Below are positions 2,398-56,379 of a stretch of DNA of 64,000 nucleotides, piece by piece. The stretch is taken from positions 124,001-188,000 of IMG/VR virus record IMGVR_UViG_3300034101_004588. One strand, given 5' to 3'. The notes under the pieces are model-generated. The model did not search any database and had not been told where the DNA came from. It worked only from the letters and a program-made list of their open reading frames with translations. Positions within the stretch are counted from its first letter, which is position 1; each line of letters starts with the position of its first letter. The position numbers and the translations under genes are program-made. This DNA is from a virus.

Positions 2398-3259
2398 TGT
2401 TTTTAAATGTTTTAATATCTCTTTCTAAAGAATCTAAAGTATTTGGCATACTTAATCCTAAGGATTCTATTTTGTCTGTTGATAAAACACAATTGCTTCT
2501 CTTAGCTTTTGTTTTTAAATTTTCAGTTTTTATAAAATTCCATTCCTGATTTTGTAATTGATATTTTTTTAAAATGTCAATTACTTGTTCTGCTTTAATT
2601 GGTTGTGGATTGACTACATTGTATATACCATAGGGAATTTGATTGATCGGAAACTGCTCAATAAATTTACAAAAATCTTGCACAGATGTAACACTATTAG
2701 TTTCATTTATTAAATCTTTATATCTTAATAATTTAGTAAAATAGTTTTTAATAGATCTATCTGAATTAAAAGGAATTCTAATGCGTAAAGTATAAGCGTT
2801 ATAATCTTTTACCAATGTTTCAAAAAGATGTTTACATTTACTATAATAAGAAGAATCTTCCGAATAAAAACCAAAATTTGGAACATCTTCTTCTGTATAA
2901 TTTTTATTATACCCATTATATATACAACCTGAAGCAACCTGAATTACAGGAATACTAAGATGATGACAGGTTTTAACTACGTTTAAAGGGTATAATACAT
3001 TATATTCATAACATTTTTCTTTATTATCTTCACAGGCATCAACATTGGGTGATCCAGTATATCCAAAACAATTTATAACAGTTTTGATATTAGAAGTTTC
3101 ATTTGCTAAAAAATCTCTAAAAATTTCAGGATTTGCATAATCTAATTGATATCTAGAAAAAGCTTTATATTCTATTTTATTTTTCTCAAAATGATGAATT
3201 AATTGAGACCCAATATAACCTTTACCTAGTATAACTGTATACATTTTATTAATATACAT
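2390..3259 (-). CDS. NAD(P)-dependent sugar epimerase/reductase (extended SDR, RmlD-like)
   Basis: A 289-residue Rossmann protein. The cofactor loop GKGYIGSQL lies near residues 12-20, a VASG strand near 105-109 and the catalytic Y-S-K-C-K (YxxxK) near 138-142. Length and order fit dTDP-4-dehydrorhamnose reductase-like enzymes. The likely role is modification of a nucleotide sugar, for host surface or phage glycan chemistry. The ATG at 3257-3259 overlaps the stop of the GuaC-like gene (TAATG); an in-frame ATG at 3244 begins right before the Rossmann strand and is an alternative start. Confidence 0.75.
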   Translation of the reverse strand: MYINKMYTVILGKGYIGSQLIHHFEKNKIEYKAFSRYQLDYANPEIFRDFLANETSNIKTVINCFGYTGSPNVDACEDNKEKCYEYNVLYPLNVVKTCHHLSIPVIQVASGCIYNGYNKNYTEEDVPNFGFYSEDSSYYSKCKHLFETLVKDYNAYTLRIRIPFNSDRSIKNYFTKLLRYKDLINETNSVTSVQDFCKFIEQFPINQIPYGIYNVVNPQPIKAEQVIDILKKYQLQNQEWNFIKTENLKTKAKRSNCVLSTDKIESLGLSMPNTLDSLERDIKTFKNNE

Positions 3260-4281
3260 TAAATCAGCCTATAATCAACGGTTTGAAAAGATGTTAAATC
3301 TGTTCCACCCGCATAAGAAATTGCTGAAGTAAGATCTTGGTAAATCTCCTTAAGTTTTTGTTCGTAAGTCATACCATTCATTGGCATTGACAAAGTTATT
3401 CCTTCAATATTTTTCTTATTACCGTTCATAGATGAAGCAGAACCAAAGTAAAGTTTCTTAGTGGGATCTGTAGGATCAACCATAGCGGGGGAATCAATAC
3501 ACCGAGCAAACACAGAACCCGCCATAACCATATCAGCGCCGGCTACTAGAGCCTTAGCAATATCTCCGTTACAAGAAATACCTCCATCGGCAATAATAAA
3601 AGGTGCTGGCTTATCTTTAAGTTTAGAAACTGATTTCGGGCTATTGAGAGCTGAAGTAGGAGATTGTCGACATCTATTAATATCTAAAACTGTTGAAAAC
3701 ATAGGGGACGCAAATCCTGTCTTATTGTAAGTAATACAGGAAGCTCCACAAGCAATACCTACTTTAACAGCCTGTACATAAGGAGCCAAGCGAACATAAG
3801 CTTGGGTTGTAGCTATATTACCTCCAATAATAAACAAATTTGGGTTAAGAGTATTCTTATAAAAATTTAAATATCGAAGCATATTAATAGCTTCAGAATG
3901 GTCTCCATGAGCAACATCAACTGTAATAAAATCAACTCTAAGCTTTTCATCTACAATTCTAGCCATTAGTTCAATATCTCTTTTTTTAATACCAATTGAA
4001 ATAGAAATAAAGGGAAGAAGATCTTCACACTTATTCATTCTCCGCATCCAATTTAAAATCTCATCATACTCATAAAACCGATGCATAATGTAGAAGTATC
4101 CATTTTGTGCTAACCAAGTAGCTTTTGTCATGTCGATGCATGAAGCCATATTAGCTGGTACAACGGGAAGTCTAAAGGCAAACTCGCCAAGCTCGACAAA
4201 TGTATCTGCTTCTGTGCGTGATTTAAGTTCTGAATAATTCGGAATAAGATGAATGTCTTTATAATTTAGAGATTTAATCAT
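3259..4281 (-). CDS. guaC: GMP reductase / IMP dehydrogenase family enzyme
   Basis: A 340-residue TIM-barrel enzyme without CBS domains. It has the PANMASC entry strand (near residue 42), the phosphate and catalytic loop KVGIACGASC with Cys182, the IADGGIS phosphate-binding strand (near 232) and a GSAS turn after a Tyr-Phe pair. The lack of CBS domains and the size favour GMP reductase (GMP to IMP, NADPH) over IMP dehydrogenase. The catalytic loop differs from the usual GPGS, having ACGAS, so the activity should be viewed with caution. Purine interconversion fits the nearby phosphoribosyltransferase and QueD genes. Confidence 0.75.
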   Translation of the reverse strand: MIKSLNYKDIHLIPNYSELKSRTEADTFVELGEFAFRLPVVPANMASCIDMTKATWLAQNGYFYIMHRFYEYDEILNWMRRMNKCEDLLPFISISIGIKKRDIELMARIVDEKLRVDFITVDVAHGDHSEAINMLRYLNFYKNTLNPNLFIIGGNIATTQAYVRLAPYVQAVKVGIACGASCITYNKTGFASPMFSTVLDINRCRQSPTSALNSPKSVSKLKDKPAPFIIADGGISCNGDIAKALVAGADMVMAGSVFARCIDSPAMVDPTDPTKKLYFGSASSMNGNKKNIEGITLSMPMNGMTYEQKLKEIYQDLTSAISYAGGTDLTSFQTVDYRLI

Positions 4282-8831: not shown

Positions 8832-9283
8832 GGTTGTACAATCCAAAAATTGCTATTGATTTCTTCTGCATAATAATCTGGTATAAAAGAAGAATGTGTT
8901 TTTTTAAAAACCGAGGCGGTTTGTACTCTTTCACACATAGATGTTTTTAATTTTTTAATAGTGTATTTAAAAGTTTCTCCTGTATCTGCAATGTCGTCAA
9001 CTATCAAAATATTGGCATCTTGTAAAATTTTATAATGTTCATCTAAAGATTGATATTCCTGAATCTTTGTTTGGTTATATTTATCATAAGATCTCAAACC
9101 CAAATTAAGACAAGTTACATCATAATGTTCTGCTAATATTACTCCGGGAATTAATCCACCTTTGCCAATAGCTATTATTATATTAGGTGTAACTTCAATT
9201 TTATTTTTTAAATTTTTAACTAAATTATCATAAGTTTCCCAATAATAATATTTTTTTTCTATTGTGCTATTTTCTGTCGTCAT
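8819..9283 (-). CDS. Purine/pyrimidine phosphoribosyltransferase
   Basis: A 154-residue type I PRTase: hydrophobic strand and PPi loop IAIGKGGLIPG (near 38-47) and the PRPP-binding signature ILIVDDIADTGET (near 92-104). It transfers or recovers a base on PRPP; size and the first loop fit xanthine-guanine-type enzymes. The ATG at 9283 is chosen over a TTG at 9289. It lies between QueD and an AAA protein, and with the GuaC-like reductase suggests purine salvage. Confidence 0.8.
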   Translation of the reverse strand: MTTENSTIEKKYYYWETYDNLVKNLKNKIEVTPNIIIAIGKGGLIPGVILAEHYDVTCLNLGLRSYDKYNQTKIQEYQSLDEHYKILQDANILIVDDIADTGETFKYTIKKLKTSMCERVQTASVFKKTHSSFIPDYYAEEINSNFWIVQPWEM

Positions 9284-9815
9284 ATTCAATCTCTCCCATT
9301 TTTTGTTTATATGTTTCCAATTCTGATTTTCGGTGATTTAAAAAATTGTTTTGTTCTGATAAACTATAAGAATCTACATAACAGTCTGTATAACAATTAG
9401 GTGTTTCATATAATCTTATTTTTTGTAATTTAAGATGTTTGTTATTTAATAAATAGCTTATTGCTAAAAACATTTCTTTAGCAATATTTTCCACTGAAGG
9501 ATTGCAATAACCGTCAATTCCATTTAAAGACATAAACCATATTTTAGATTTAGTAGATTCGCAAGCCGAAATAACATGATGATCTTTCGGGTTCACTATG
9601 GTTCCGTGATCTAACATATCATCAATCCATTGACATCCTACTCTCTTGATTTCTTTAAAATCTATAGCATAACCAATACTTTCCATTTGGTCAAACTTAA
9701 ATTCCAATTCATAAAGATAGGTATGCCCGTGTAAATTAAAACATTTCATTCTCTCATTCATAACGCGATGAGCTGAATCGAAAGTTCCTTTACGTGTGAT
9801 AGTTTGATATGCCAT
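9267..9815 (-). CDS. queD: 6-carboxytetrahydropterin synthase-like (QueD / PTPS family)
   Basis: A 182-residue protein with FDSAH (His16), catalytic-position Cys25, and HGH (His29, His31), which form the zinc site of the PTPS/QueD fold. D-H-G, an ENIAK helix and a late L-Y-E-T-P strand complete the family pattern. QueD makes the 7-deazaguanine precursor from dihydroneopterin triphosphate. In phages this pathway can feed DNA modification with 7-deazaguanines or tRNA queuosine. No QueC, QueE, FolE or DpdA is visible in this window. Confidence 0.85.
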   Translation of the reverse strand: MAYQTITRKGTFDSAHRVMNERMKCFNLHGHTYLYELEFKFDQMESIGYAIDFKEIKRVGCQWIDDMLDHGTIVNPKDHHVISACESTKSKIWFMSLNGIDGYCNPSVENIAKEMFLAISYLLNNKHLKLQKIRLYETPNCYTDCYVDSYSLSEQNNFLNHRKSELETYKQKMGEIEYDDRK

Positions 9816-10184: not shown

Positions 10185-10382
10185 TCAAATGTATTTGTTT
10201 TGATTTTTAATTTTATTAAGTTTTTGTTGAAACCTTCTTTTTCTTTCTCTTTTTTGTTTAGGAGTTTCAAAAGCTCTTTTAGAATAAAGTTGATCCATTA
10301 AACCATCATTAATAACTAATGTTTTTAATTTTTTTAAAGCAATATCTAAAAATTCTTTATTTTTTATTTTAATCGTGTACAT
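10185..10382 (-). CDS. rpsU: Phage-encoded small-subunit ribosomal protein bS21 homologue
   Basis: A 65-residue, strongly basic protein. The order matches bS21: a short strand (IKNKEF), the helix DIALKKLKTLVINDGL, an R-x-F-E-x-P-K-Q-K-R segment (RAFETPKQKR) and a basic C-terminal helix. bS21 sits near the anti-Shine-Dalgarno region of the 30S subunit. Phage-encoded bS21 is known from several large phages and is thought to replace the host protein to favour phage messages. That fits a phage whose own genes mostly lack Shine-Dalgarno sequences. Confidence 0.75.
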   Translation of the reverse strand: MYTIKIKNKEFLDIALKKLKTLVINDGLMDQLYSKRAFETPKQKRERKRRFQQKLNKIKNQNKYI

Positions 10383-10401
10383 AGTTAAAAATAATTATTA
10401 T

Positions 10402-11856
10402 TTAGTTATTTAAGGCATCTGCCAATAGCTGACCAACCTGGCTTACGGTTACAAAATTAGATAGTTTTTGATTTATCAATTGATTTGTTGCACTAAGATC
10501 TGTGGTAGTCGCTACGGCTGATAATCTTGCACCTATACTATCAGGTACTGTTATACTCGATAATGCAAAACTCCAAATATCTGCAGGATTTAATAAAGCA
10601 GTACCTACAGTATTATCTACAGGGACACCCCATGAAACAGCAGACGGAGAAGGCACTGCCATTGTTCCAATTAACCCCCCAGAAGCATAAACAGTACCTG
10701 TTCTTACACTTGAAACGGGTGGTAAACTAAAAGTTTCATAATCCGGTGTATAAAAATAAACAAATGTATTATTTCCACTTAATGCTTCTCTTATAACTGA
10801 TTTTACTGGTGTTGTTCCGGTTACTAAAGTCGGTGAATAAATAGCCACAGTACCATCTGAATTATCGTATGCATTACCATTAAAAGTAAGTGTGCCTGTA
10901 TTTTCAATAGCAGAAGCTCCTGTAACGCCCGCATAAGCTTCTCCAGTAATAAACATCGTCGCTATATTTCTGACACCTGTGAAATTAAGGTTCGTACCTC
11001 GAATTGTACCAGTACAATAAGCTATTCCTGCTGCACCATTATTATTGACGCCATATGTAGCACCATTTGCCCCATTACCACCTTCCATAATACCAACAAC
11101 GGTTACGGTTCCACCTGCATTATTAAAAACGCCACTAGAGCCAGTGTTTCTGCCGTACGCTGCTCCAGTTACAAACATTTGTCCAGCTGCTAAATTTCTA
11201 ATTCCATGATTTCCATTTTGGCCAGCTAATACTGTTCCGGTAATGTAAACTATTCCTGTTGATTCATTTGTAAGAGCATTGCATTGCATATTGTTGCCTA
11301 TTGCCTCTAAATTACCTATTATATTAAGTGTGCCTGTTGAAATATTTCTTATGCAATGAGCATTAGATGTACTTCCAGAAACAGAATTTCCTATTATATT
11401 TCCCGTATCAACATGATTACAATTTAATAAAGTAACAGTACTACTACGAAAATCTGCCCAAATAGTATAACCCGTATTCATGGTTAAACCGCCACCAGCC
11501 GTTGCTAAAACTGCTGCATTTGTATTTGCTAGATTAGTTATAGTAGCTACCGTTCTAGCAGTTCCTGTTCCAGTTCCAACTCCAGTAGCTAAAAATACCG
11601 CACCCACAGTATTGCTACCAGCACCAATAGAAGTAAAATTAGTAGAACCAATCGTAACAATTTCGTAATATTGCCCAATAACAAACGAACCCGCATTAAC
11701 TACTACATTATTAGTTGAACCTATTTGTATATTTTGATTAACCGTAACATCATAGCTGTTTAAATAGACAGTATCTCCAGCACTAGGTACAAGACCGGTG
11801 CTCCATACGGTATTATCATTCCAATTTCCGGTTTTTATTGCTTTTACTACGGCCAT
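10402..11856 (-). CDS. Tail-fibre-type structural protein, paralogue A
   Basis: A 484-residue, Gly/Thr/Asn/Val-rich protein predicted to be beta-helical. It opens with a module (VVKAIKTGNWNDNTVWSTG) typical of phage appendage proteins, followed by a roughly 45-residue insert ending in GTGTGTA, then repeated I-T-G-x(n)-N turns. The C-terminal region with DNTVGTALLNPADIW is shared with the next gene. It is probably a receptor-binding or decoration component. Composition is less AT-biased at third positions than neighbours. Confidence 0.65.
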   Translation of the reverse strand: MAVVKAIKTGNWNDNTVWSTGLVPSAGDTVYLNSYDVTVNQNIQIGSTNNVVVNAGSFVIGQYYEIVTIGSTNFTSIGAGSNTVGAVFLATGVGTGTGTARTVATITNLANTNAAVLATAGGGLTMNTGYTIWADFRSSTVTLLNCNHVDTGNIIGNSVSGSTSNAHCIRNISTGTLNIIGNLEAIGNNMQCNALTNESTGIVYITGTVLAGQNGNHGIRNLAAGQMFVTGAAYGRNTGSSGVFNNAGGTVTVVGIMEGGNGANGATYGVNNNGAAGIAYCTGTIRGTNLNFTGVRNIATMFITGEAYAGVTGASAIENTGTLTFNGNAYDNSDGTVAIYSPTLVTGTTPVKSVIREALSGNNTFVYFYTPDYETFSLPPVSSVRTGTVYASGGLIGTMAVPSPSAVSWGVPVDNTVGTALLNPADIWSFALSSITVPDSIGARLSAVATTTDLSATNQLINQKLSNFVTVSQVGQLLADALNN

Positions 11857-13581: not shown

Positions 13582-15021
13582 TTAGATGTATACTGCAGAA
13601 AGTCTATCTGTCCAAGCGACGTTCGTAGCTTTTCCAGTAGCAGAAACTGTTCCTGTTGTTGTAAATACGGTTCTGTTAATAATCCAAACACTATTAGTAT
13701 CTAAAGAACCGGTTACTGCTTTACCAGAATAAGACGTATTTGGGATATAATCAAAACGATAAGTGTAAGTTATAATAGGCTGAGCTGATAAAGAAGATAA
13801 AGAAATGGTATTGCCATTAGATATAGATAAATTATAAGACGTCGAGTTCCAAGATAATGTTTGTGAATCGGTCTCAGCAGTTAAAAAGATATCTACTAAA
13901 TCTGTTCCACCGGAAAGAATTTTATTTGTAGTATTTAAATCTCCTTCTATATCTAAAATATTATTTGGTCCAGATAATTTACCGTCTGGTTTAAAAGTCC
14001 AATTATAATCATCTAATGTAGTTAAAACTATTTCATTATCTGTATTATCAAAAGTTATGCTGTTGTTATTTGAATCATAAGCATAAAAAGCCGATGGAGA
14101 TAAAGCAACTTTAACAAAAGATGATAAAGAAGTATTTTCCGATTCTAATGATAAAGTTTTTTCGTCTCCTATACGTATAGTGTCATCTGGTATAGATAAA
14201 GTACCATCTGCACTAAGAATAAAAGATTCTGTTCCAGCTATTAATCTATCGGGAAGACTCCCACTAGAAAATACTGATGCTAAATCAACGCCACCAGAAA
14301 GATATTGTCCAGTGACATTTAAAGTTCCGTCCATGGTACCGCCATTACGAAAGTCTCTAGCAAAATTACCATCTCCACCTCCACCCTCCGCAACTACTCC
14401 TCCGCGGAACTTAGAAAAAAATTCTTTGACCTGTTTTTCTACTATTTTATTAATAGATTTTTCTAAATTTTTATTTTCGTTCTTTTCTTCTTCTTTTTCT
14501 GTTTTATTATCTGCTTTTTCTAATTCTTGAACATAAACATTTTCTTTTATTTCTTCTTTTTTCTTTTTTGTGGGAAGCTTTTTAACAGATCTTTTTGAAA
14601 TGTTGATAGGTTCTTTTGAAGATTTAAGATTTTCTATTAATTCTAAAGCAGCTTTTTTAATGTTAGAGTTTTTAGTTTCTTCTAAATTTTGTTTAGGTTT
14701 TATAATTACCTTTTTTGTTTCTAAAGGTTCTAGATTATTTTCCTTTATATCTTCTACAATTTTAACAAGTTTTGGTGGAGAAGTTTTTAAAATGTTAACC
14801 AGTTTATGTAAAAAACCTTCTAAAGGTTCTTTAGAAGAATTGTCTGAAGCCTCTACTATTTCTTTGATTAATAAATTTTTATCTTCAACTACGTTTAAGG
14901 ATTCTTCTATTTTAACATTTTCTGTTGAAGGATTTTTTTCAGACAACAAAACATCTTTGATAGGTTTTTTTTGTTCTGTAGCTTTTTTATATAAATTTAA
15001 AACTTCTTCCGTAGAATCCAT
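13582..15021 (-). CDS. Tail-fibre-type protein with long charged N-terminal helix
   Basis: A 479-residue protein. Residues 1-200 are Lys/Glu-rich and helical (likely coiled coil), followed by a Gly-rich hinge (VVAEGGGGDG), then a beta-rich fibre body beginning NGGTMDGTLNVTGQYLSGG, a motif common in phage short-fibre proteins. The C-terminal domain has strands and an SVWIINRTVF segment. It is probably an elongated tail appendage; it lies at the upstream end of the 10402-15021 structural cluster. Confidence 0.6.
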   Translation of the reverse strand: MDSTEEVLNLYKKATEQKKPIKDVLLSEKNPSTENVKIEESLNVVEDKNLLIKEIVEASDNSSKEPLEGFLHKLVNILKTSPPKLVKIVEDIKENNLEPLETKKVIIKPKQNLEETKNSNIKKAALELIENLKSSKEPINISKRSVKKLPTKKKKEEIKENVYVQELEKADNKTEKEEEKNENKNLEKSINKIVEKQVKEFFSKFRGGVVAEGGGGDGNFARDFRNGGTMDGTLNVTGQYLSGGVDLASVFSSGSLPDRLIAGTESFILSADGTLSIPDDTIRIGDEKTLSLESENTSLSSFVKVALSPSAFYAYDSNNNSITFDNTDNEIVLTTLDDYNWTFKPDGKLSGPNNILDIEGDLNTTNKILSGGTDLVDIFLTAETDSQTLSWNSTSYNLSISNGNTISLSSLSAQPIITYTYRFDYIPNTSYSGKAVTGSLDTNSVWIINRTVFTTTGTVSATGKATNVAWTDRLSAVYI

Positions 15022-15063
15022 GATTATCTACTTATAAACATTTTACAAAATTCTCTGTATAAG

Positions 15064-15135
15064 CATCCTCGACGAGATTTGAACTCGTGATAACTCCGTG
15101 AAAGGGAGCTGTGATAACCACTTCACTACGAGGAC
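15064..15135 (-). tRNA. tRNA-Glu(UUC)
   Basis: Minus-strand cloverleaf: acceptor GTCCTCG / CGAGGAT, anticodon loop CTTTCAC (anticodon TTC), T-loop TTCAAAT. CCA is not encoded. G1-U72 is a wobble pair. Confidence 0.85.
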
Positions 15136-15184
15136 TAGCTAAATAATTATTCGTTTAATTTTAAAAAAATCAAGAAATATTTAA

Positions 15185-15388
15185 TTATTCTTCTGGATAA
15201 AGATCATCAACAAATCCTTCGTCTTCTGCATAATGCCTGACTTTACTGAAGATATTAATGTTTTTTACAGGTTTACTACTAGTTATTTCCCAATCATCAT
15301 CTTCTAATACACTAATTGAAAAATCTATGCCGTAAAGTTTGATATTGAACCTTTTAACTACTTTAGGCTTTCTTTTTTTACGACTCAT
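15185..15388 (-). CDS. Hypothetical small protein
   Basis: A 67-residue protein starting MSRKKRKPKVVKRF at the ATG 15388; an in-frame start 24 nt upstream is possible. Basic N-terminus, a strand (FNIKLYGIDFSISVL), then an acidic end. The pattern 'IKLYGIDFSI...EDDDWEI' resembles the 35783-35977 product (LEFKKRKFEVFIKPYG...EIRTKK...DEGYVD). Both end with an 'EGFVDD/EGYVDT' motif, so they may be distant paralogues. Confidence 0.5.
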   Translation of the reverse strand: MSRKKRKPKVVKRFNIKLYGIDFSISVLEDDDWEITSSKPVKNINIFSKVRHYAEDEGFVDDLYPEE

Positions 15389-15422
15389 GATATACTTATA
15401 GTACGGCTTCATAAGTCGTAAA

Positions 15423-15497
15423 TGGCGTGCCCAGCAGGACTCGAACCTGCAACCTACAGCTTAGAAGGCTGTTGCTCTTCCATTGAGCTATGAGCAC
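15423..15497 (-). tRNA. tRNA-Arg(UCU)
   Basis: Minus strand: acceptor GTGCTCA / TGGGCAC, anticodon loop CTTCTAA (TCT), canonical T-loop TTCGAGT. CCA is encoded (15423-15425). Confidence 0.9.
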
Positions 15498-33786: not shown

Positions 33787-33860
33787 ATGGTAGGGAATGA
33801 CGGTTACGCTCCGCCGACCCATGAGTGTAAATCACGTGTTTTACTATTAAACTAATTCCC
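33787..33860 (-). tRNA. tRNA-Val(UAC) with unusual T-loop
   Basis: Minus strand: acceptor GGGGAAT / ATTCCCT, anticodon loop TTTACAC (TAC), T-stem GGCGG/CCGTC enclosing AGCGTAA instead of TTCRANY. CCA is encoded (33787-33789). Confidence 0.8.
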
Positions 33861-33863
33861 CAA

Positions 33864-34127
33864 TTATCTTTTATACTTAAACCAAGCATACACTAAAATT
33901 GTGCACATAATAAGCCCAACACAATAATTTAAAAACCACCAAAGCCCAAAAGTTCCTAAAAACATATAAACCATCCCAGAAATATAACCTCCAATAGACA
34001 TAAGAATAAGAGTTAAAGAAACGTCTCGGGAAGATTTGTTTTGAAATATTTTAACAATTTGCGGAATGTAACAAAACATAAAACACAGAGTCATTACAAT
34101 TCCTGCAATTTCTTTTACTATTTCCAT
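33864..34127 (-). CDS. SemiSWEET/PQ-loop-type membrane transporter
   Basis: An 87-residue protein with three predicted membrane helices (about 5-25, 38-58, 64-83). The first helix ends Y-I-P-Q-I-V-K-I-F-Q-N-K-S-S, the PQ motif and following polar turn of SemiSWEETs, and S-L-T-L-I-L-M-S-I-G-G follows. Bacterial SemiSWEETs have this length and dimerise to move sugars. A phage-encoded member may alter host sugar uptake or efflux. Transport is inferred. Confidence 0.7.
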   Translation of the reverse strand: MEIVKEIAGIVMTLCFMFCYIPQIVKIFQNKSSRDVSLTLILMSIGGYISGMVYMFLGTFGLWWFLNYCVGLIMCTILVYAWFKYKR

Positions 34128-34197
34128 TCAAGCATTATAGGTCTAACAGGCAAAGAATGCAACAACAAAATAGCTTTTATAAACTAAATATATAAGA

Positions 34198-34962
34198 ATG
34201 TTAAGTCATCATTTAGTAAGAATTTATTCTAATTTATTGCAAGAAGGATATTACGAAAATCAATTAAATCCAAAGTTTTGGAGTCCACAAGGAATTTTTG
34301 ATAGAAGTATAAGAGAAAAGCTGTTATCAATAGCTCATGAATTTTACGACAATTTAAAATTAGAAACTCCGATAATAGATATACAATTGACCGGATCTCT
34401 AGCAAATTATACCTACACAGATTATTCTGATTTAGATGTTCATATAATAATAGATTTTTCTAAAATCAATAAAGACGTAGAATTGGTTAAAAAAGCTCTA
34501 GACGGTATGAGATTTGTTTGGAATTTAAGGCACAATATAACTATTAAAGAACATGAAGTAGAAATGTATTTACAAGACATAAATGAAGTTCATTTGGCTT
34601 CTGGATTGTATAGTCTTATGGAAGATAAATGGCTTAAGAAACCAGTATATAATCCGCCAGAAATAGATGAAAAGGATGTAGATTTAAAATTTGAAGAATT
34701 TGCAAAAGAGATTACGCGTTTAGAAAATGTTTTAAATTTAACAAATTTAACTCGAGAAGAAGCTAAACATTTAAGAGAAAGAGCAATACACATTAAAGAT
34801 AAAATACAAAATGGAAGAAAACAATGCTTAGGTGTAGGTGTATATAATGAGTTTTGTGTCGAAAATTTAGTTTTTAAAAAATTACGCAATGCTGGTTTAA
34901 TTGCTAAATTAATAGAATTATCCAGTGAAGCTTACGATAAAATATATTCTGAAAGCGTTTAA
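34198..34962 (+). CDS. Nucleotidyltransferase-fold protein
   Basis: A 254-residue protein. L-T-G-S-L-A-N near residue 64 followed by Y-S-D78-L-D80-V gives the G-S-x(n)-D-x-D signature of the polymerase-beta NTase superfamily. The C-terminal half is helical with a REEAKHLRERAIHIKDKI stretch. NLLQEG near residue 12 weakly resembles the shared N-terminal motif. It may adenylate or otherwise modify a protein or RNA; it lies just upstream of the tRNA array. Confidence 0.65.
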   Translation: MLSHHLVRIYSNLLQEGYYENQLNPKFWSPQGIFDRSIREKLLSIAHEFYDNLKLETPIIDIQLTGSLANYTYTDYSDLDVHIIIDFSKINKDVELVKKALDGMRFVWNLRHNITIKEHEVEMYLQDINEVHLASGLYSLMEDKWLKKPVYNPPEIDEKDVDLKFEEFAKEITRLENVLNLTNLTREEAKHLRERAIHIKDKIQNGRKQCLGVGVYNEFCVENLVFKKLRNAGLIAKLIELSSEAYDKIYSESV

Positions 34963-34963
34963 T

Positions 34964-35036
34964 TGGATCCTCCAGGATTCGAACCTAGAATGTAACGTCC
35001 GTAGCGTTAAGTGATAGTCCATTTCACTAAGGATCC
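34964..35036 (-). tRNA. tRNA-Arg(ACG)
   Basis: Minus strand: acceptor GGATCCT / AGGATCC, anticodon stem TAACG/CGTTA with loop CTACGGA (ACG), T-loop TTCGAAT. CCA not encoded. Confidence 0.85.
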
Positions 35037-35040
35037 TAAA

Positions 35041-35117
35041 TGGCGGAACCAAGGGGACTTGAACCCCTGGCCCCCTGCGTGACAGGCAGGTGCTCTAACC
35101 AACTGAGCTATGATTCC
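35041..35117 (-). tRNA. tRNA-Asp(GUC)
   Basis: Minus strand: acceptor GGAATCA / TGGTTCC, anticodon stem CCTGC/GCAGG with loop CTGTCAC (GTC), T-loop TTCAAGT, encoded CCA. Confidence 0.9.
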
Positions 35118-35121
35118 AAAA

Positions 35122-35195
35122 TGGTGCGGTGACACGGTTACGCTCCGAGGCCCGAAGTTTGGAAGACTCCTGTACTACTATTATACTACCACCGC
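35122..35195 (-). tRNA. tRNA-Gly(UCC) with unusual T-loop
   Basis: Minus strand: acceptor GCGGTG(G) / (T)CACCGC, anticodon loop CTTCCAA (TCC), T-arm CTCGG-AGCGTAA-CCGTG, encoded CCA. The T-loop is the same as in tRNA-Val. Confidence 0.8.
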
Positions 35196-35202
35196 AAAAG
35201 AT

Positions 35203-35294
35203 TTGTGCTGTTATGGGTTCTGCCCTTTACTTACGTATGGTGACCCTACCACGTAGACCAATGCCAAGGGTTATTAGGTTCTTAACCACAGCAC
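35203..35294. ncRNA. Unexplained structured RNA element X1 in the tRNA array
   Basis: A closed fold bounded by an 8-bp helix (TGTGCTGT 35204-35211 with ACAGCACA near 35287-35294). Inside are a GGG/CCC hairpin, an extended hairpin TACGT...ACGTA, and GGTTA...TAACC. It does not give a standard tRNA on either strand. It shares ACTTAC-hairpin-CCAATGCCAAGGGTT with element X2 (ACTTAC-hairpin-CCTAATACCAGAGGGTT). Strand of transcription is unknown, although tRNAs around it are on the minus strand. Confidence 0.4.
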
Positions 35295-35298
35295 AAAA

Positions 35299-35373
35299 TG
35301 GCATGTCGGGTGGGTAATGCTCCCACATAAGGCAGTTTTGGAGACTGCTGCATTGCTTGTCTGCCACCGACAT
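35299..35373 (-). tRNA. tRNA-Trp(CCA) with unusual T-loop
   Basis: Minus strand: acceptor ATGTCGG / CCGACAT, anticodon stem GCAGT/ACTGC with loop CTCCAAA (CCA), T-arm GTGGG-AGCATTA-CCCAC, encoded 3' CCA. Confidence 0.8.
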
Positions 35374-35380
35374 ATAAAAA

Positions 35381-35453
35381 TAGCGGAGGTGGGAGTTGAA
35401 CCCACCTATAGATGCTTATGAGACACCCCAATTCACCGGAATTGTACTCCGCA
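35381..35453 (-). tRNA. tRNA-Met(CAU), initiator-like
   Basis: Minus strand: acceptor TGCGGAG / CTCCGCT leaves a U1-U72 mismatch; D-stem CAAT/ATTG gives A11-U24; anticodon loop CTCATAA. The mismatch at 1-72 and the purine11-pyrimidine24 pair are bacterial initiator determinants. The three G-C pairs of the anticodon stem are absent (TGT/GCA), so it is a partial match. Confidence 0.75.
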
Positions 35454-35454
35454 A

Positions 35455-35661
35455 TCAAATTACAAAAACTTTACATTTACCGTCTTTAGAATAATAAGAC
35501 ATAGCTTCTTCATAAGAATCAAACAAAACACAACTGCCATCAGAATAAATGGCTTTAAATTTAGTTGGATTCATTTTCAAAAAATCCATTGTCATGTCAA
35601 TTGCTTTTTTAATTGCTTGGTCTGATGTTTGATCTTCAAGACTATTACCACTGGTTATCAT
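35455..35661 (-). CDS. Hypothetical small protein within tRNA array
   Basis: A 68-residue protein (MITSGNSLEDQTSDQAIKKA) with strands FKAIYSDGSCVLFDSYEEAM and KCKVFVI. It lies between tRNA-Met and tRNA-Ser without overlap. Unknown function. Confidence 0.45.
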   Translation of the reverse strand: MITSGNSLEDQTSDQAIKKAIDMTMDFLKMNPTKFKAIYSDGSCVLFDSYEEAMSYYSKDGKCKVFVI

Positions 35662-35694
35662 TAAAATACTTAATGGGTCTTAGACCATTAAATG

Positions 35695-35779
35695 CGGGTG
35701 CAGAGGGAATCGAACCCCCGAGGGAATGGTTACCCCAGCTGATTTCAAGTCAGTGTCCTCGACCAACCGGACTACACCC
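35695..35779 (-). tRNA. tRNA-Ser(UGA)
   Basis: Minus strand: acceptor GGGTGTA / TGCACCC, anticodon loop CTTGAAA (TGA), long variable arm, T-loop TTCGATT. Confidence 0.85.
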
Positions 35780-35782
35780 TTT

Positions 35783-35977
35783 TTAAAATTTGTTATATTC
35801 TTTAGCAGTATCTACATAACCTTCATCTATTAAATATTTTTTTAAAGATTGAAAATCATCTCTAGATAAAGGTTTTTTAGTACGGATTTCTAAATCAAAT
35901 CCTTGTCCGTAAGGTTTAATAAAAACTTCAAATTTTCTTTTTTTAAATTCTAATTTTGTGTAATATGCATTTTTCAT
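35783..35977 (-). CDS. Hypothetical small basic protein
   Basis: A 64-residue protein (MKNAYYTKLEFKKRKFEVFI) alternating strands and turns, ending DEGYVDTAKEYNKF. Similar in layout to 15185-15388. Its start overlaps the stop of 35974-36165 (ATGA). Confidence 0.45.
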   Translation of the reverse strand: MKNAYYTKLEFKKRKFEVFIKPYGQGFDLEIRTKKPLSRDDFQSLKKYLIDEGYVDTAKEYNKF

Positions 35978-36165
35978 AAATTGTTTTTAACCCATGATAT
36001 TTCTAAAGTGTATCCTAACCAGGACACACCATACTTTGCACACGATGTAAAATTGTAATAAGAAAAATTAGGTATTTTAAAAAATATTGGCCATTTCCAT
36101 AAACCAAAATTATATCTGCCTAATATAAGCCAATTGAATGTTGGTAGTATTGTTTGAGTTTTCAT
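35974..36165 (-). CDS. Hypothetical aromatic-rich small protein
   Basis: A 63-residue frame from ATG 36165 (MKTQTILPTFNWLILGRYNF); the longer open frame would extend into tRNA-Ser and is rejected. Rich in Trp, Phe and Tyr; could be membrane-associated. Confidence 0.4.
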   Translation of the reverse strand: MKTQTILPTFNWLILGRYNFGLWKWPIFFKIPNFSYYNFTSCAKYGVSWLGYTLEISWVKNNL

Positions 36166-36177
36166 AAAAATATTTAA

Positions 36178-36265
36178 CGGAGCGAGCAGGATTTGAACCT
36201 GCGGAGGATTATTAGCCCTCGAAGCTTTAGCAAAGCTTTGTTTTAAACCACTCAACCACCGCTCC
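36178..36265 (-). tRNA. tRNA-Ser(GCU)
   Basis: Minus strand: acceptor GGAGCGG / TCGCTCC, anticodon stem AAGCT/AGCTT with loop TTGCTAA (GCT), long variable arm, T-loop TTCAAAT. Confidence 0.85.
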
Positions 36266-36271
36266 TTAAAA

Positions 36272-36353
36272 TGCTCAATGAGGGAGTCGAACCCACACGC
36301 CTTGCGGCTACAGATCCTAAGTCTGTCGTGTCTGCCAATTTCACCAATTGAGC
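36272..36353 (-). tRNA. tRNA-Leu(UAG)
   Basis: Minus strand: acceptor GCTCAAT / ATTGAGC, anticodon stem ACAGA/TCTGT with loop CTTAGGA (TAG), long variable arm (TAGCCGCAAGGCGT), T-loop TTCGACT. Confidence 0.85.
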
Positions 36354-36355
36354 TT

Positions 36356-36426
36356 TGGAGAATACCAGAGTCGAACTGGTGACACCTGAATGCAAATCAG
36401 GAGTTATACCACTTAACTAATTCCCC
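36356..36426 (-). tRNA. tRNA-Ala(UGC)
   Basis: Minus strand: acceptor GGGGAAT / ATTCTCC, anticodon stem CCTGA/TCAGG with loop TTTGCAT (TGC), T-loop TTCGACT. It starts 2 nt from tRNA-Leu. Confidence 0.85.
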
Positions 36427-36432
36427 GAAAGA

Positions 36433-36535
36433 GTGAGACGTTTACCCGCGACGTCTCAGGATCAATCTTAACTCTTCCTAGAGAGAACCCTGGAAAAAGA
36501 ATGTCGGCTCCATTTACAAGATTAACCCAATTGTT
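36433..36535. other. Structured noncoding stretch
   Basis: About 100 nt without a gene. It holds a GAGACGT...ACGTCTC hairpin (7 bp), a long imperfect pairing GGATCAATCTT with AAGATTAACCC, and an inner GGAA/TTCC stem. No tRNA can be folded. Possibly the 3' region of the lipoprotein message or another array RNA. Confidence 0.35.
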
Positions 36536-36643
36536 TTACTTTACGGTGCAAACAGTCGTCTTACCACTTGGTTTACATTCTTTTTTTGATGCACATGCGG
36601 TAAGGGTCATAATTGCCACGATTGTTAGAATAATGTATTTCAT
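36536..36643 (-). CDS. Very small lipoprotein
   Basis: A 35-residue frame from ATG 36643 to TAA 36536. MKYIILTIVAIMTLTAC is a lipoprotein signal with lipobox L-T-A-C (Cys17); the mature part is only 19 residues (ASKKECKPSGKTTVCTVK) with two cysteines. It sits inside the tRNA array. Confidence 0.55.
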   Translation of the reverse strand: MKYIILTIVAIMTLTACASKKECKPSGKTTVCTVK

Positions 36644-36686
36644 AGAATCTTTATTATAATACTTTTATTTATAATATCAACTGTTG

Positions 36687-36759
36687 GTTGCTCGACGGGG
36701 TTCGAACCCGCTCCGACAGAATCACAATCTGTAATGCTTACCGTTACACTACAAGCAAC
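36687..36759 (-). tRNA. tRNA-His(GUG)
   Basis: Minus strand: G-1 paired with C73, acceptor TTGCTTG / CGAGCAA, anticodon loop TTGTGAT (GTG), T-loop TTCGAAC. The extra G-1 is the His identity element. Confidence 0.85.
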
Positions 36760-36765
36760 ATTAAA

Positions 36766-36849
36766 AGTTTTGGAGCAGGACTTACTTTTGTGCACTTTCC
36801 AATTACACAAAACGCCTAATACCAGAGGGTTGGTGGTTACTCCAAAAAA
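36766..36849. ncRNA. Unexplained structured RNA element X2
   Basis: Bounded by an 8-bp helix TTTTGGAG / CTCCAAAA, with an internal 7-bp hairpin TTTTGTG/CACAAAA. Shares the ACTTAC-hairpin-CC(T)AAT-CCA-AGGGTT arrangement with X1. No standard tRNA fits either strand. Confidence 0.4.
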
Positions 36850-36851
36850 TA

Positions 36852-36924
36852 TCGGGATAGAGGGGCTCGAACTCTCAATCTCCTGCTCCCAAAGCAGGCG
36901 CCTTAACCGTTGGGCTATATCCCG
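36852..36924 (-). tRNA. tRNA-Pro(UGG)
   Basis: Minus strand: acceptor CGGGATA / TATCCCG, anticodon stem CCTGC/GCAGG with loop TTTGGGA (TGG), T-loop TTCGAGC. Confidence 0.9.
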
Positions 36925-36930
36925 TAAAAA

Positions 36931-37044
36931 TTATTTTTTAATTAAATTTCTTTTTTTAATTTCTGTTAAAAACTCCTCAGCTAATGTATTAAAATTTATA
37001 TTTAAAGCCCATTCATAATAATATAAAAGCTCTTTGTTAGTCAT
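36931..37044 (-). CDS. Hypothetical very small protein
   Basis: A 37-residue frame from the ATG at 37044 (MTNKELLYYYEWALNINFNT), helical and charged. A longer TTG-start version reaches 37149. Evidence is only the open frame and the fit between tRNA genes. Confidence 0.35.
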   Translation of the reverse strand: MTNKELLYYYEWALNINFNTLAEEFLTEIKKRNLIKK

Positions 37045-37157
37045 TTTAGATTCGTGTTTTAAAGATCTTATTATTTTTAAACCAAAAAAATTTAAAAAAA
37101 TTTCCAAAAAATTCACAATTAATAATACCTTAGAAAAACTTAAAATCAAGAAAATAA

Positions 37158-37228
37158 TCCCTCCTCAAGGTACTGCCCCTTGTTCTATCGGTTATCAACC
37201 GATTGTAATGCTACTATACTAAAGAGGG
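37158..37228 (-). tRNA. tRNA-Ile(GAU) with unusual T-loop
   Basis: Minus strand: acceptor CCCTCTT / AGGAGGG, anticodon stem ATCGG/CCGAT with loop TTGATAA (GAT), T-arm CAAGG-GGCAGTA-CCTTG. CCA not encoded. Confidence 0.75.
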
Positions 37229-37620
37229 GAAGGGCGTGTTTTTGTCCCGGAAACCGAAGGCGTCCCAACTTAATGTGTACCGGTTTTGTTATCACGCTAA
37301 TCACCCGATTGGTGCGCATCAACATCATTGAGAGGCGTTCCGGGTCTACTATAATATTTAGTTAGTATTTGAAGAGTTTTGCTCCGGAAATTGTCTCTTC
37401 TTCAACGAGACCGGGCATGGAGCCCGGAATCATCCGTCTAGCCTGTATTGAATCTAATGCATGGAGTCATAGTTTTACGCAGCCTGACTCGTCCAGCAAC
37501 AGTAAGAAAGTCCCAACACACTAACAGGCAAAGACTATCTTACCTGGATCTGGTTTATTTGCTGCTGCCAGATCCGTTATCTTTATACTATAGCAATATT
37601 TTATATTTGCAAATAGAAAA
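37229..37620. ncRNA. 392-nt structured noncoding region (includes element X3)
   Basis: No credible gene. At 37246-37345 CCCGGAA pairs with TTCCGGG around AACTTA and CTAATCACC segments, resembling X1/X2 loosely. Further on are CCGGGC/GCCCGG (near 37421-37437), GTAAGAAAGTC pairing with GACTATCTTAC (37502-37543, one mismatch) and GGATCTGG/CCAGATCC (37547-37576). The density of perfect stems in an AT-rich genome suggests functional RNA. Class unknown. Confidence 0.4.
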
Positions 37621-37697
37621 TGGAGTATCGGGTCAGACTTGCACTGACTAATGAAAGTTTTGCAGACTATCGCTTCGACTACTTTAGCTTCCGATAC
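37621..37697 (-). tRNA. tRNA-Cys(GCA)
   Basis: Minus strand: acceptor GTATCGG / CCGATAC, anticodon loop CTGCAAA (GCA), T-arm GTCAG-TGCAAGT-CTGAC, U73 discriminator (Cys identity) and encoded CCA. T-loop differs from TTCRANY. Confidence 0.8.
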
Positions 37698-37706
37698 TTT
37701 AAAATG

Positions 37707-37777
37707 AGCCTAGTGACAGAATCGAACTGACGTCAGATGATTACAAATCAACCGTTTTACCATTAAACTAACCAGGC
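37707..37777 (-). tRNA. tRNA-Thr(UGU)
   Basis: Minus strand: acceptor GCCTGGT / ACTAGGC, anticodon loop TTTGTAA (TGT), T-loop TTCGATT with one mismatch in the T-stem and one in the anticodon stem. Confidence 0.75.
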
Positions 37778-37783
37778 ATAAAA

Positions 37784-37854
37784 TGCGAGTACTCGGTAAT
37801 GCTCCGAGGCCTAAAACTTGGCAAGCTTCCGTTCTACTATTAAACTATACCCGC
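37784..37854 (-). tRNA. tRNA-Gly(GCC) with unusual T-loop
   Basis: Minus strand: acceptor GCGGGTA / TACTCGC, anticodon loop TTGCCAA (GCC) on a stem with G-U pairs, T-arm CTCGG-AGCATTA-CCGAG. Confidence 0.75.
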
Positions 37855-38466: not shown

Positions 38467-38496
38467 ATTATTATTTATAGTAAAATAGAAAGGAAG

Positions 38497-38952
38497 AGGA
38501 GATGAGGGGACTCGAACCCCTGTCCAAATACTTTACACTAAAAGGTCTACATGTTTAAGTGTCTTTAGCATTTCAGCCACCATACGGTGACGAAGACTTT
38601 AGGCTGCTTGGCGACACTAACCGAGTTTTTAGTCTGCCTATAGACATTACCGCACATCTACAAACGGAGGATTCTTTTTGTTACGTTGATACAGTCCACA
38701 ATTCAACTACCTCTGCATATCAATATAACCTTAGAGGATCTGGTTATAAGGACCTTAGGCTGCTAAGAGATACTCTTCTTCAACACCACCGAGGAACTCG
38801 GAAGCATTGTTGAAGATATACTCGGCTTCAGCCAAGATAGCATCAGTATTATCTTCTGCTTTTAGTTTTTTGATCTGCTTTTTACGAGGCCAGCTGATCA
38901 ACCTCGACATGCACTCTTAGTTTCAACTATTTGTCGAAACCAGTACATCCCC
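38497..38952 (-). ncRNA. ssrA: tmRNA (ssrA)
   Basis: Minus strand. The 5' end GGGGATGTACTGGTTTCGAC and the 3' T-arm AGGGGTTCGAGTCCCCT are hallmarks of tmRNA; ends pair as GGGGATG / CATCTCC. GTGCATGTCGAGG and AACATGTAGACC match conserved helix 2 and pseudoknot regions of bacterial tmRNA. The tag frame starts at GCA 38857-38859 and ends at TAA 38755-38757: 34 residues beginning AEDNTDAILAEA and ending EEEYLLAA. A strong hairpin (CTTCAACA...TGTTGAAG with CCGAG/CTCGG inside) lies within the tag frame. CCA is not encoded. It would rescue stalled ribosomes, tagging products for LAA-recognising proteases. Confidence 0.9.
38755..38859 (-). other. tmRNA tag-peptide reading frame
   Basis: 35 codons including the stop. 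The frame starts at the alanine resume codon GCA, preceded by A-rich sequence (ACTAAAA), and ends Leu-Leu-Ala-Ala-stop, the ClpXP-type degron end. At 34 residues it is about three times the usual length. Confidence 0.75.
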
Positions 38953-42001: not shown

Positions 42002-42169
42002 TTATTTCTTTTTACCCCAGTTTTTAGCTCCTTTTTTGCGACATTTTGCTAAAGCTCCTGCTGCATAATAAGAAGGCCATGCTCCAGATTTTTGGTATTT
42101 TCTTTTTACTTTTTTATAACAAGCATCTTTTTCTTCTAAAACTAATTTTATTAGGTTATTTAAATTCAT
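42002..42169 (-). CDS. Small conserved protein with LVLEE start and CYKKVKxxY domain
   Basis: A 55-residue protein from ATG 42169, whose start overlaps the stop of 42169-42771. NLNNLIKLVLEEKDACYKKV then KYQKSGAWPSYYAAGALAKC and GAKNWG. The CYxKVKxxYxxWPSxYAxGALxxCRKxGAxNWG block is widespread in phages; LVLEE at residues 8-12 fits the putative processing motif. Confidence 0.55.
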   Translation of the reverse strand: MNLNNLIKLVLEEKDACYKKVKRKYQKSGAWPSYYAAGALAKCRKKGAKNWGKKK

Positions 42170-42771
42170 TATGATTTTATTAAATTTGCTTGTGCTGTCC
42201 AAAAATAGGTTTCTCCAGTGGCTCCATTAACTTTTATCCTAAAGAAATTTGGAGAATCAACAACTACATTAGCATCTACTGACGTGTTGTCTCTGGCATG
42301 TATTATCTTAGTAGGAGTGCCTACTAGTTCTGTAATAGATCCAGATGTTGATCTTCTTTTAACGGATCCGGAGAATTCAAAAAAAGCAGTATCTCTGCTA
42401 CTAGCACTACTACGACCTATAAGGTGTATTTTATAATTCCAGGAATCTCCTAAATTTAAAGTCATGTCTGCTCCGTCTTTAGTTAATAAAGTAGTTAAAG
42501 TTGTTCCTGTAGCTGAACCTCTTAAAATTAAAATTTCTGATACATAAGTAGCATCACCAAAAATAACCGGGGTTTCTGCGTATAAAGTTCCATCTACAGT
42601 TAAATCGTTTTTAATTTCTGCATAAGGAAGATTTAAAAATACTGTAGATAAAGCAATTTTAAAGGTGTCTGGATTATCAAAAGTTCCAAAATTTGCTGGG
42701 ATAACCCCTGTATTAAAAGCATTACCTATATAAGGAGGTAATTGACTAATTTTTTTAGATGCTGTAGCCAT
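42169..42771 (-). CDS. Tail/fibre-type structural protein
   Basis: A 200-residue beta-rich protein. KKISQLPPYIGNAFNTG at the start and repeated short strands resemble base or neck segments of phage fibres; NDLTVDGTLYAETPVIFGDA is a fibre-like turn region. Followed by 42002-42169 without a gap. Confidence 0.55.
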   Translation of the reverse strand: MATASKKISQLPPYIGNAFNTGVIPANFGTFDNPDTFKIALSTVFLNLPYAEIKNDLTVDGTLYAETPVIFGDATYVSEILILRGSATGTTLTTLLTKDGADMTLNLGDSWNYKIHLIGRSSASSRDTAFFEFSGSVKRRSTSGSITELVGTPTKIIHARDNTSVDANVVVDSPNFFRIKVNGATGETYFWTAQANLIKS

Positions 42772-42780
42772 TATTAATAT

Positions 42781-43164
42781 TTATGGACGTTGAGGTGGAT
42801 AATCTTTATGATATCGTTCTAAATATGTAGTTCTTTCTGATATTTGATCTAATTGTTTTTGTAAGCCAGATACTACTGTATTGTAACCCTTCAACTGTTC
42901 TGCATATACTAACTGGGTTTGCATTATATTTTCCAATTTGCTTTGAGTTAATTCAAATTGAGTTTGTAAAAAATTTTCTTGTTTGTCTAAATAGGTTTGA
43001 AATTTATCTTGTCTCAAATAAGTGGATTCCATCCACAGTGTATAATACCCAACAGCTAAAAAGGTTATAATAACAAAAATAGGTTTGATTACAACACTAA
43101 TAAAAGCTCGATGACGAGTTTCGAATTTATTAAATTTGGATATAAAATCTGATGATTCACTCAT
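42781..43164 (-). CDS. Membrane-anchored coiled-coil protein
   Basis: A 127-residue protein: cytoplasmic start, one transmembrane helix (about 25-47, PIFVIITFLAVGYYTLWMES) and a long Gln-rich coiled coil (KLENIMQTQLVYAEQLKGYN). Layout suits an inner-membrane spanin-like or holin-associated role; no direct evidence. Confidence 0.5.
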   Translation of the reverse strand: MSESSDFISKFNKFETRHRAFISVVIKPIFVIITFLAVGYYTLWMESTYLRQDKFQTYLDKQENFLQTQFELTQSKLENIMQTQLVYAEQLKGYNTVVSGLQKQLDQISERTTYLERYHKDYPPQRP

Positions 43165-51744: not shown

Positions 51745-52085
51745 TAAACAAATAATTCTACAACATCTTTAATATCTGGAATTATCATTTCTATATCATC
51801 TTGGTCTATCTCTTTTCCTTCTTTATCATAAAGAGGAGTTTCTAAATATTTTTGCGAAGATACCCAGTTTCTATAAAAATTATCAAATTCTGGTGTAGAT
51901 AAAAATCCAGCAAATGTTTGTATAGCAGAATTTAATTTATCTATATGTTCATTGTACTTGCTAATCATAAGACCGGCTTCTCGGCGATCTTTTTCATCTT
52001 TAGAAAAAGATTTTAGTCCTTGAATTTTTAGATTAGTTATTTCTTCTGCAGCTTCTTGTAATAATTGTAAATCTTTTTTTGTCAT
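51744..52085 (-). CDS. Protein with N-terminal LLQEA-IQGLKSF module
   Basis: A 113-residue protein (MTKKDLQLLQEAAEEITNLK) with helical body. Starts with one base overlap after the next gene. Same family module. Confidence 0.5.
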   Translation of the reverse strand: MTKKDLQLLQEAAEEITNLKIQGLKSFSKDEKDRREAGLMISKYNEHIDKLNSAIQTFAGFLSTPEFDNFYRNWVSSQKYLETPLYDKEGKEIDQDDIEMIIPDIKDVVELFV

Positions 52086-52402
52086 AATTGTTCACTTGCA
52101 TAAATGCCTAATTTTTTGTGAGCTTCATCTCTGTTTAAGAAATGCCATTTGTTGTTAGTTGGGTGTATAAAAGCGAATCCTTCTTCAGGTTTTCCTTTAT
52201 CATACCATTTATCGGCTTCTTCATCACTAGGAATACGACCTAATTTTTTAGGAAGATATTCGTCAAATATTTCTCGAAAAACAAAACCATGACCCATGCG
52301 AGTTTTATCATGGAATATTTTTCCGTATACTTTAATAGCGGGGTAAAGCTTAATGCCTCCACGAGCTTCAAAAATCAGACAAATATAATATGTATTAAAC
52401 AT
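52082..52402 (-). CDS. Hypothetical protein
   Basis: A 106-residue mixed protein (MFNTYYICLIFEARGGIKLY) with G-R-I-P-S-D-E-E-A-D-K-W-Y-D-K-G and WHFLNRDEAHKKLG; no module. Overlaps the module-bearing gene by 4 nt. Confidence 0.5.
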   Translation of the reverse strand: MFNTYYICLIFEARGGIKLYPAIKVYGKIFHDKTRMGHGFVFREIFDEYLPKKLGRIPSDEEADKWYDKGKPEEGFAFIHPTNNKWHFLNRDEAHKKLGIYASEQL

Positions 52403-52432
52403 ATCATATATTTATAGAAACCAGGTGGTATT

Positions 52433-54334: not shown

Positions 54335-54988
54335 ATGGCTTATATCAATACCGATATTCCTTTATTCTCTTGTCTGCTAGATACTAGCTTTCTTTATGAT
54401 AAAGACCCAAGAACCACCCAAGAATATCTTAAAGTAGAGGTCTTTGGATTTACTTCTCTTAATCGAAGATGCGGTCTCTTCTCGGTTATGTCAGAAATGG
54501 GTAGTGTTCATACTCGAGTACCTCTTCATTACCTTATAGCCGAGGACACGGATAATCCCTCTCATTACCCGCTCGACTGGTTGCAACTTTGGGATTCCTA
54601 TTCTCCTTATGTGCAATGTATAAGATATGAGTACCTCAAAAACCTCACTTGTAAGATCTGCCTGAAAGATAGGAACTATGAGTCGGCTCGCTATCTCATG
54701 ACCTTTGATTGGTGCTATGGACCGGAATTCACCACCGGACAAAGTGAAAATCCGGGAGGTCATAAACAAGGACATCTACTAAAGGGCGATCACGGACAAT
54801 ACTATATACAACCGGGTAATAGAATAATCTGGAGAGACGGAGGAGCCTGGATTGGTAAAGAATTACAAGGGCATGAAAAATGGAAAGTCTTTTCTAAAGA
54901 GTTCTCTTGTGAACAAACAGGTTCTCGATGGTTTGCCGGAGAAGAAGAATTACACTTCTACCAATTTGAAAAGAATAAAGACAGGTGA
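54335..54988 (+). CDS. Conserved phage hypothetical protein
   Basis: A 217-residue protein from ATG 54335 (MAYINTDIPLFSCLLDTSFL); longer starts are not needed, and a TATAAT (54323-54328) lies 6 nt before this ATG. Trp/Tyr/Gly-rich with C-x-x-C pairs (LTCKICLKDR). The TDIPLFxCLxxxxFLYD start is familiar from phage early proteins, function unknown. Confidence 0.55.
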   Translation: MAYINTDIPLFSCLLDTSFLYDKDPRTTQEYLKVEVFGFTSLNRRCGLFSVMSEMGSVHTRVPLHYLIAEDTDNPSHYPLDWLQLWDSYSPYVQCIRYEYLKNLTCKICLKDRNYESARYLMTFDWCYGPEFTTGQSENPGGHKQGHLLKGDHGQYYIQPGNRIIWRDGGAWIGKELQGHEKWKVFSKEFSCEQTGSRWFAGEEELHFYQFEKNKDR

Positions 54989-55498: not shown

Positions 55499-55508
55499 AA
55501 CAGTTATT

Positions 55509-56372: not shown

Positions 56373-56379
56373 AGTCTTT

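Follow-up and report, generated by a model that had tools for sequence, protein, structure and literature searches.

A large T4-like myovirus carries a genuine gene for the ribosomal protein bS21 that encodes lysine at position 54, where Bacteroidota bS21s have tyrosine. Shine-Dalgarno (SD) sequences are nearly absent from its genome, and the major capsid gene is among the very few exceptions. We propose that the phage bS21 is functional, that it replaces the bS21 of a host which is probably a member of the Bacteroidota, and that in doing so it exposes the anti-Shine-Dalgarno (ASD) sequence and favours the SD-bearing capsid mRNA; we give this reading a probability of a little under 0.4. It is the best explanation we can offer for the identity of the protein, the loss of the aromatic residue, the purifying selection seen in relatives, the capsid-biased SD and the spacing of late promoters, and it supposes a host phylum, incorporation into the 30S subunit, exposure of the ASD and a boost to capsid synthesis.

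A phage-encoded bS21 and its relatives

The window analysed here comprises 64,000 nucleotides, bases 124,001–188,000 of a 210,956-base (211-kb) virus record. PHROG matches elsewhere in the record identify a T4-type (gp23-type) capsid protein, portal, terminase, contractile sheath and DNA polymerase; a search of the record for a 16S rRNA gene found none. The first-pass annotation had described the genome as translation-heavy, and this is borne out by a tmRNA and about 24 tRNAs, the latter being the distinct places in the window after joining the ARAGORN (19) and Rfam (22) lists; ARAGORN found no tRNA or tmRNA in the rest of the record. The relevant features of the window are:

10185..10382 (-), phage bS21 gene P0001, 65 aa (Pfam, TIGR00030, PHROG and PDB searches, AF2)
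10383..10422 (-), leader of the bS21 gene, A/T-rich and without a Shine-Dalgarno sequence (duplex energy +2.9 kcal/mol)
15063..15497 (-), tRNA-Glu and tRNA-Arg, the tRNAs closest to bS21 (ARAGORN/tRNA list)
33791..37854 (-), main tRNA cluster (ARAGORN and Rfam lists)
38494..38952 (-), tmRNA of 459 nt with a predicted 34-aa tag, AEDNTDAILAEAEYIFNNASEFLGGVEEEYLLAA (Rfam RF00023, 135.2 bits; tag reading frame)

The 65-aa open reading frame is present exactly at 10185–10382(-), translates as MYTIKIKNKEFLDIALKKLKTLVINDGLMDQLYSKRAFETPKQKRERKRRFQQKLNKIKNQNKYI and is the only S21 copy in the record. Its assignment to bS21, made initially by eye with a profile search suggested as the check, is upheld by Pfam Ribosomal_S21 (PF01165; E 9.4e-9, 35.3 bits against a curated cutoff of 27), narrowly by NCBIfam TIGR00030 (29.0 against 28.95 bits) and by a match to PHROG 21469, ‘ribosomal protein S21’. 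A phmmer search of the PDB with P0001 matched bS21 chains down to E 4.5e-4, and a profile built from eight phage members reached bS21 at E 2.4e-6. The expected helical layout was recovered in an AF2 model from eight sequences (helices at 9–25, 28–34 and 41–64; mean pLDDT 79, pTM 0.46), in which the basic helices, like the length of 65 residues, lie within what is expected of bS21 (two basic helices, about 55–75 aa), but Foldseek added no significant support, its top PDB match being a mitochondrial bS21 chain at E 1.3. A tblastn search with P0001 of 50,697 phage records at E 0.01 gave no match, and no cellular bS21 bearing SKRAFETP was found in cellular genome contigs. One apparent relative, L002, was discarded as a chance match of PKQKRERK inside an unrelated reading frame.

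Using the capsid protein as the query we collected 80 related IMG/VR loci. Among 49 related records searched, two, both longer than 200 kb, carry S21; the 47 without it are mostly short fragments. In one relative of 125 kb, G009, bS21 and tmRNA were sought and neither was found, and its capsid gene (locus L028) also lacks an SD. Scans with a growing alignment brought the P0001 clade to eight distinct sequences (P0001 and seven from IMG/VR), all of which contain KRAFETPK. Within close pairs of relatives the clade is under strong purifying selection, six such pairs having dN of 0.10–0.23 against dS of 0.66–1.16; the seventh pair, P0001 and L101, is distant and its synonymous sites are saturated. 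A second bS21 clade, made up of 10 distinct sequences from L093 and 22 further loci, has KWKYY or KWKFY at its C-terminal end, in some cases with one additional residue.

The bS21 gene lies among genes for a PTPS-family protein, a phosphoribosyltransferase and an AAA ATPase. The PTPS-family enzyme (9267–9815) and a GMP-reductase-like enzyme (3259–4281) possibly belong to nucleotide or queuosine-type metabolism. Within a nucleotidyltransferase-like gene at 34198–34962(+), a 277-nt piece (34301–34577) has 70% DNA identity with a 735-kb uncultured huge phage. The region 54900–62000, some 7 kb at 45% GC within a stretch of about 31% GC, has no open frame longer than 184 codons and contains two tRNAs (Asn, Lys), with Rfam giving tRNA families only; a 190-nt piece of it is 72% identical to a related record (G005), the other matches being short and at or near tRNAs. 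It is possibly a large non-coding RNA region. The tmRNA tag is conserved in relatives (L233–L238) as an acidic, unusually long peptide ending in LLAA, of 34–35 aa when counted from a GCA at the canonical place; in two relatives ARAGORN instead calls a shorter tag, made up of the final 9 or 25 residues.

Residue 54 and the anti-Shine-Dalgarno sequence

In Flavobacterium johnsoniae, Tyr54 of bS21 is reported to stack on A1534 of the 16S rRNA and to help sequester the ASD, and ribosomes with the Y54A substitution or a C-terminally truncated bS21 are reported to make 3- and 5-fold more protein, respectively, from a strong-SD mRNA in vitro (McNutt et al., 2023, PMC9976891). We aligned the phage clade with Bacteroidota bS21s from 80 loci, two of which were dropped for want of a usable start. 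The residue-54 column is tyrosine in all 78 Bacteroidota sequences; in the phage clade it is lysine in seven of eight and arginine in the other. Thus the aromatic residue that marks Bacteroidia-type, ASD-sequestering bS21s is absent from the P0001 clade, although L106 and L108 have a histidine one residue ahead of this column. Further residues that are invariant in Bacteroidota bS21s are also consistently replaced, and the C-terminal helix of P0001 is plain and basic, resembling generic bS21s. Since an aromatic residue at this position is reported for all bacterial and phage bS21s analysed by Chen et al. (2022, PMC9723584), the P0001 clade differs from theirs.

Given Lys54 and this C-terminal helix, an exchange of the host protein for the phage one is expected to expose the ASD. 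We envisage that in a Bacteroidia host Tyr54 of the resident bS21 would fold the 3' tail of the 16S rRNA away, such that the ASD cannot pair. On infection the phage bS21 would take its place in 30S subunits, and the ASD of ribosomes carrying Lys54 would become exposed. The remodelled ribosomes may then produce more of the major capsid protein, the most-needed structural protein, by way of the SD on its message. The capsid message, which bears an SD, would be the one placed to profit from an ASD set free by a bS21 without Tyr54. The Y54A substitution alone caused no drop in SD-less translation in the published assay (PMC9976891), so a boost to capsid synthesis need not imply that host translation is shut off.

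A simpler explanation is that the phage bS21 merely restocks ribosomes late in infection, as its tRNAs and tmRNA might, with the choice of messages unchanged. In six records, representing four of the eight distinct sequences, a tRNA-Gly belonging to a tRNA cluster precedes the gene by 34 or 49 nt, and all 10 records with a P0001-clade bS21 have a tmRNA, as do two of three other records tested; in the window phage the closest tRNA is 4.7 kb away. A plain spare copy would nevertheless have no need for the consistent replacement of Tyr54 and of the other Bacteroidota-invariant residues, and we consider this account rather doubtful.

Shine-Dalgarno sequences and late promoters

The first-pass annotation had the phage messages lacking SD sequences. 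This holds within the window, where an SD 4-mer precedes 5 of 68 genes against 5.4 in shuffles, but less strictly across the record, where it precedes 20 of 164 genes against 10.5±3.1 in shuffles, some of these being promoter sequence (AGGATAAATA). An SD of 5 nt is found at 8 of 187 genes (4%) in this phage, at 13 of 43 (30%) in T4 and at 7 of 44 (16%) in P-SSM2, and at 1/33, 5/41, 1/50 and 0/46 genes (0–12%) in four Bacteroidota phages, whose hosts were taken from their records. The T4 count, together with SDs at 11 of the 14 genes of contig L087, served as a control of the pipeline and was as expected. The Bacteroidota rpsU genes themselves have an SD of at least 5 nt in 31 of 78 cases; the phage bS21 gene has none.

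The capsid gene, which lies outside the window (at record base 14,979), has CAGGAGGAAAACGTA ahead of its ATG. Across the family, an SD of 4 nt precedes 55 of 80 capsid genes and one of 5 nt precedes 42, leaving 25 capsid genes without even the 4-nt form; for other genes the counts are 92 and 47 of 699. The bias recurs among contigs whose capsid protein is at least 78% identical (4 nt: 11/14 capsid genes against 7/117 others; 5 nt: 6/14 against 0/117). In 44 SD-poor contigs, 20 of the 44 capsid genes have a 5-nt SD, as do 7 of 505 others, the latter rate being low partly by construction as the contigs were picked by the SD use of their other genes. The capsid sequences counted are related, and Fisher values for capsid against other genes therefore overstate independence. 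Capsid starts were set by homology and other starts by the first ATG of the reading frame, a choice that might mask SDs in the latter; even so, the capsid SDs of G000, G002 and G306, and SDs in T4, are picked up when the first ATG is used throughout. Of 44 genes in G306, the capsid gene alone has a pairing energy under -6 kcal/mol.

Other members fit less well. G307 carries a P0001-clade bS21 but has a weak capsid SD (AGAAAG, -5.5 kcal/mol), and G027, with a capsid protein 70% identical, has a different bS21, ending in KWKYY, and also a capsid SD. Capsid SDs are therefore not tied to the Tyr54-less form. In the window phage itself at least one other gene, L005:18624-19262(-), has a stronger SD than the capsid gene (AAGGAGGT, -12.5 kcal/mol); its product of 212 aa starts MKIAVSGTASIGKTT and by eye has a kinase-like P-loop. 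A hairpin with a stem of at least 7 pairs lies upstream of the SD in 51 of 80 capsid leaders against 208 of 694 other genes; in most close relatives (for example L003:14880-14978, L013, L018 and L019) its sequence varies and its place, upstream of the SD, is similar.

The idea that the phage bS21 serves SD-less messages is not what these data single out, since Tyr54 is gone and the gene with an SD is that of the capsid. Our more specific proposal, that a Tyr54-less bS21 acts as a switch unlocking the ASD and restoring SD pairing, and that a nearly capsid-only SD gives this message late priority, is tentative and more doubtful than not, its weak points being that we infer the host, the weak SD of G307 and the capsid SD that accompanies another bS21 in G027.

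T4 late promoters share the core motif ATAARTA, and T4 transcripts start about 6 nt past it. In the window phage ATAARTA ends 4–9 nt before a start codon at 19 places among 164 genes, against 1.8 in shuffles, and four related records show the same spacing (12/64, 5/39, 4/36 and 8/51 genes). T4 and P-SSM2 have it at 0 of 37 genes each, the T4 sites lying mostly at 24–28 nt. Examples in the window are:

15029..15035 (-), late-promoter-like ATAAGTA, separated by 7 nt from the start of 13582–15021
42778..42784 (-), late-promoter-like ATAAATA, separated by 6 nt from the start of 42169–42771
52409..52415 (-), late-promoter-like ATAAATA, separated by 6 nt from the start of 52082–52402

With a T4-like start offset of about 6 nt, this spacing would place the first base of the messages at or near the AUG, and we predict that the late mRNAs of the genes bearing the motif are leaderless. 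The transcripts of F. johnsoniae itself are reported to be mostly leadered (PMC6847099). The phage bS21 might accordingly tune initiation to leaderless late messages instead of to SD pairing, and several genes of the second bS21 clade have the motif directly before their own start. Only part of the genes has the motif, however, so that the leaderless messages first read from the sequence survive for this subset alone, and we think it unlikely that they are what bS21 acts upon.

The probable host and relation to known systems

Several observations make a Bacteroidota host probable. The ribonucleotide reductase (RNR) is 48.6% identical to that of Maribacter phage Panino against 33–34% for the next phages with a named host, one record without a named host reaching 50.2%. 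Upstream of start codons G is depleted, a pattern shared with Bacteroidota phages but not with T4 and P-SSM2. Phage tRNAs are similar to Bacteroidota ones in 335 of 395 genomes (best 91%, tRNA-Leu), a comparison made with Bacteroidota alone. The best PDB profile match is bS21 of 9i5v, which over the matched stretch of 45 residues shares 98% identity with the bS21 of Porphyromonas loveana. The capsid SD pairs at -7.45 kcal/mol with a 16S tail ending in CCUCCUUUCU, against -5.89 for the E. coli and -6.05 for the cyanobacterial tail; the energies argue mildly against a cyanobacterial host and do not single out Bacteroidota. The tmRNA is neutral or speaks against such a host, giving short 3' matches only, in 2 of 247 Bacteroidota genomes. 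Other markers were set aside: the capsid, terminase and polymerase resemble only distant T4-like phages, the protein at 44187–45773 matches cyanophages but also Puniceispirillum phage HMO-2011, and GMP reductase is not diagnostic.

Alternatively, the host may lie outside the Bacteroidia that hide their ASD. The bS21 would then be of generic bacterial type, and the capsid SD would simply raise the expression of a single gene on ordinary ribosomes. The indirect nature of the host tests, the C-terminal helix and a flat promoter count (16 sites of Bacteroidota type where shuffles give 16.5, with 5 against 1.2 in T4, so the motif is not Bacteroidota-specific) would fit this, but the RNR, the start context and an SD use as low as that of Bacteroidota phages make it improbable.

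Of the ribosomal proteins encoded by phages, bS21 is reportedly the most frequent (PMC9976891, PMC6375957), and replacement of host bS21 by a phage form that favours phage messages has already been proposed (PMC6375957, PMC7162821, PMC9723584). The earlier suggestion that this bS21 retunes 30S subunits toward phage messages is therefore plausible and already in print, and redirection of host ribosomes is not new; what is added here is the loss of Tyr54, the capsid SD and the late-promoter spacing. Among titles and the opening lines of abstracts in the literature searched, we found no report of a capsid-restricted SD or of a Tyr54-less phage bS21.

The freshwater Bacteroidetes phages described by Chen et al. 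(2022, PMC9723584) are, like this one, large AT-rich myoviruses with a phage bS21 and many tRNAs, and takeover of the ribosome was likewise proposed for them. Their bS21s have an aromatic residue at position 54, and the gene lies on the opposite strand beside the terminase and capsid genes; here the residue is Lys54 and bS21, at record base 134,185, is far from the terminase (about 108–110 kb) and the capsid gene (about 15 kb). Pelagiphage HTVC008M also encodes a bS21, reported to be incorporated into E. coli 70S ribosomes (Mizuno et al., 2019, PMC6375957); its host is Pelagibacter, and P0001 had no tblastn match in the phage records searched. A phage bS21 other than P0001 is reported to have left E. 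coli ribosomes about 5% active (PMC6375957), which speaks against our proposal. The second clade (L279–L300), present in the related phage G027, differs from the P0001 clade in its KWKYY or KWKFY end and in keeping KPS.

Were the proposal true, a virus would rewire initiation by swapping a single ribosomal protein. The P0001 clade makes this concrete, as a prediction about one residue (54) and one message (capsid) in a host system in which ASD sequestration has already been reconstituted. The parallel is with autoregulation of bS21 in F. johnsoniae, where a gene with an SD, set in a genome otherwise SD-less, is reported to be better read when ribosomes lack the C-terminal clamp of bS21 (McNutt et al., 2023, PMC9976891). 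In that case the host's own rpsU responds to a lack of bS21; in the phage the candidate gene is that of the capsid, which would respond to a substituted bS21.
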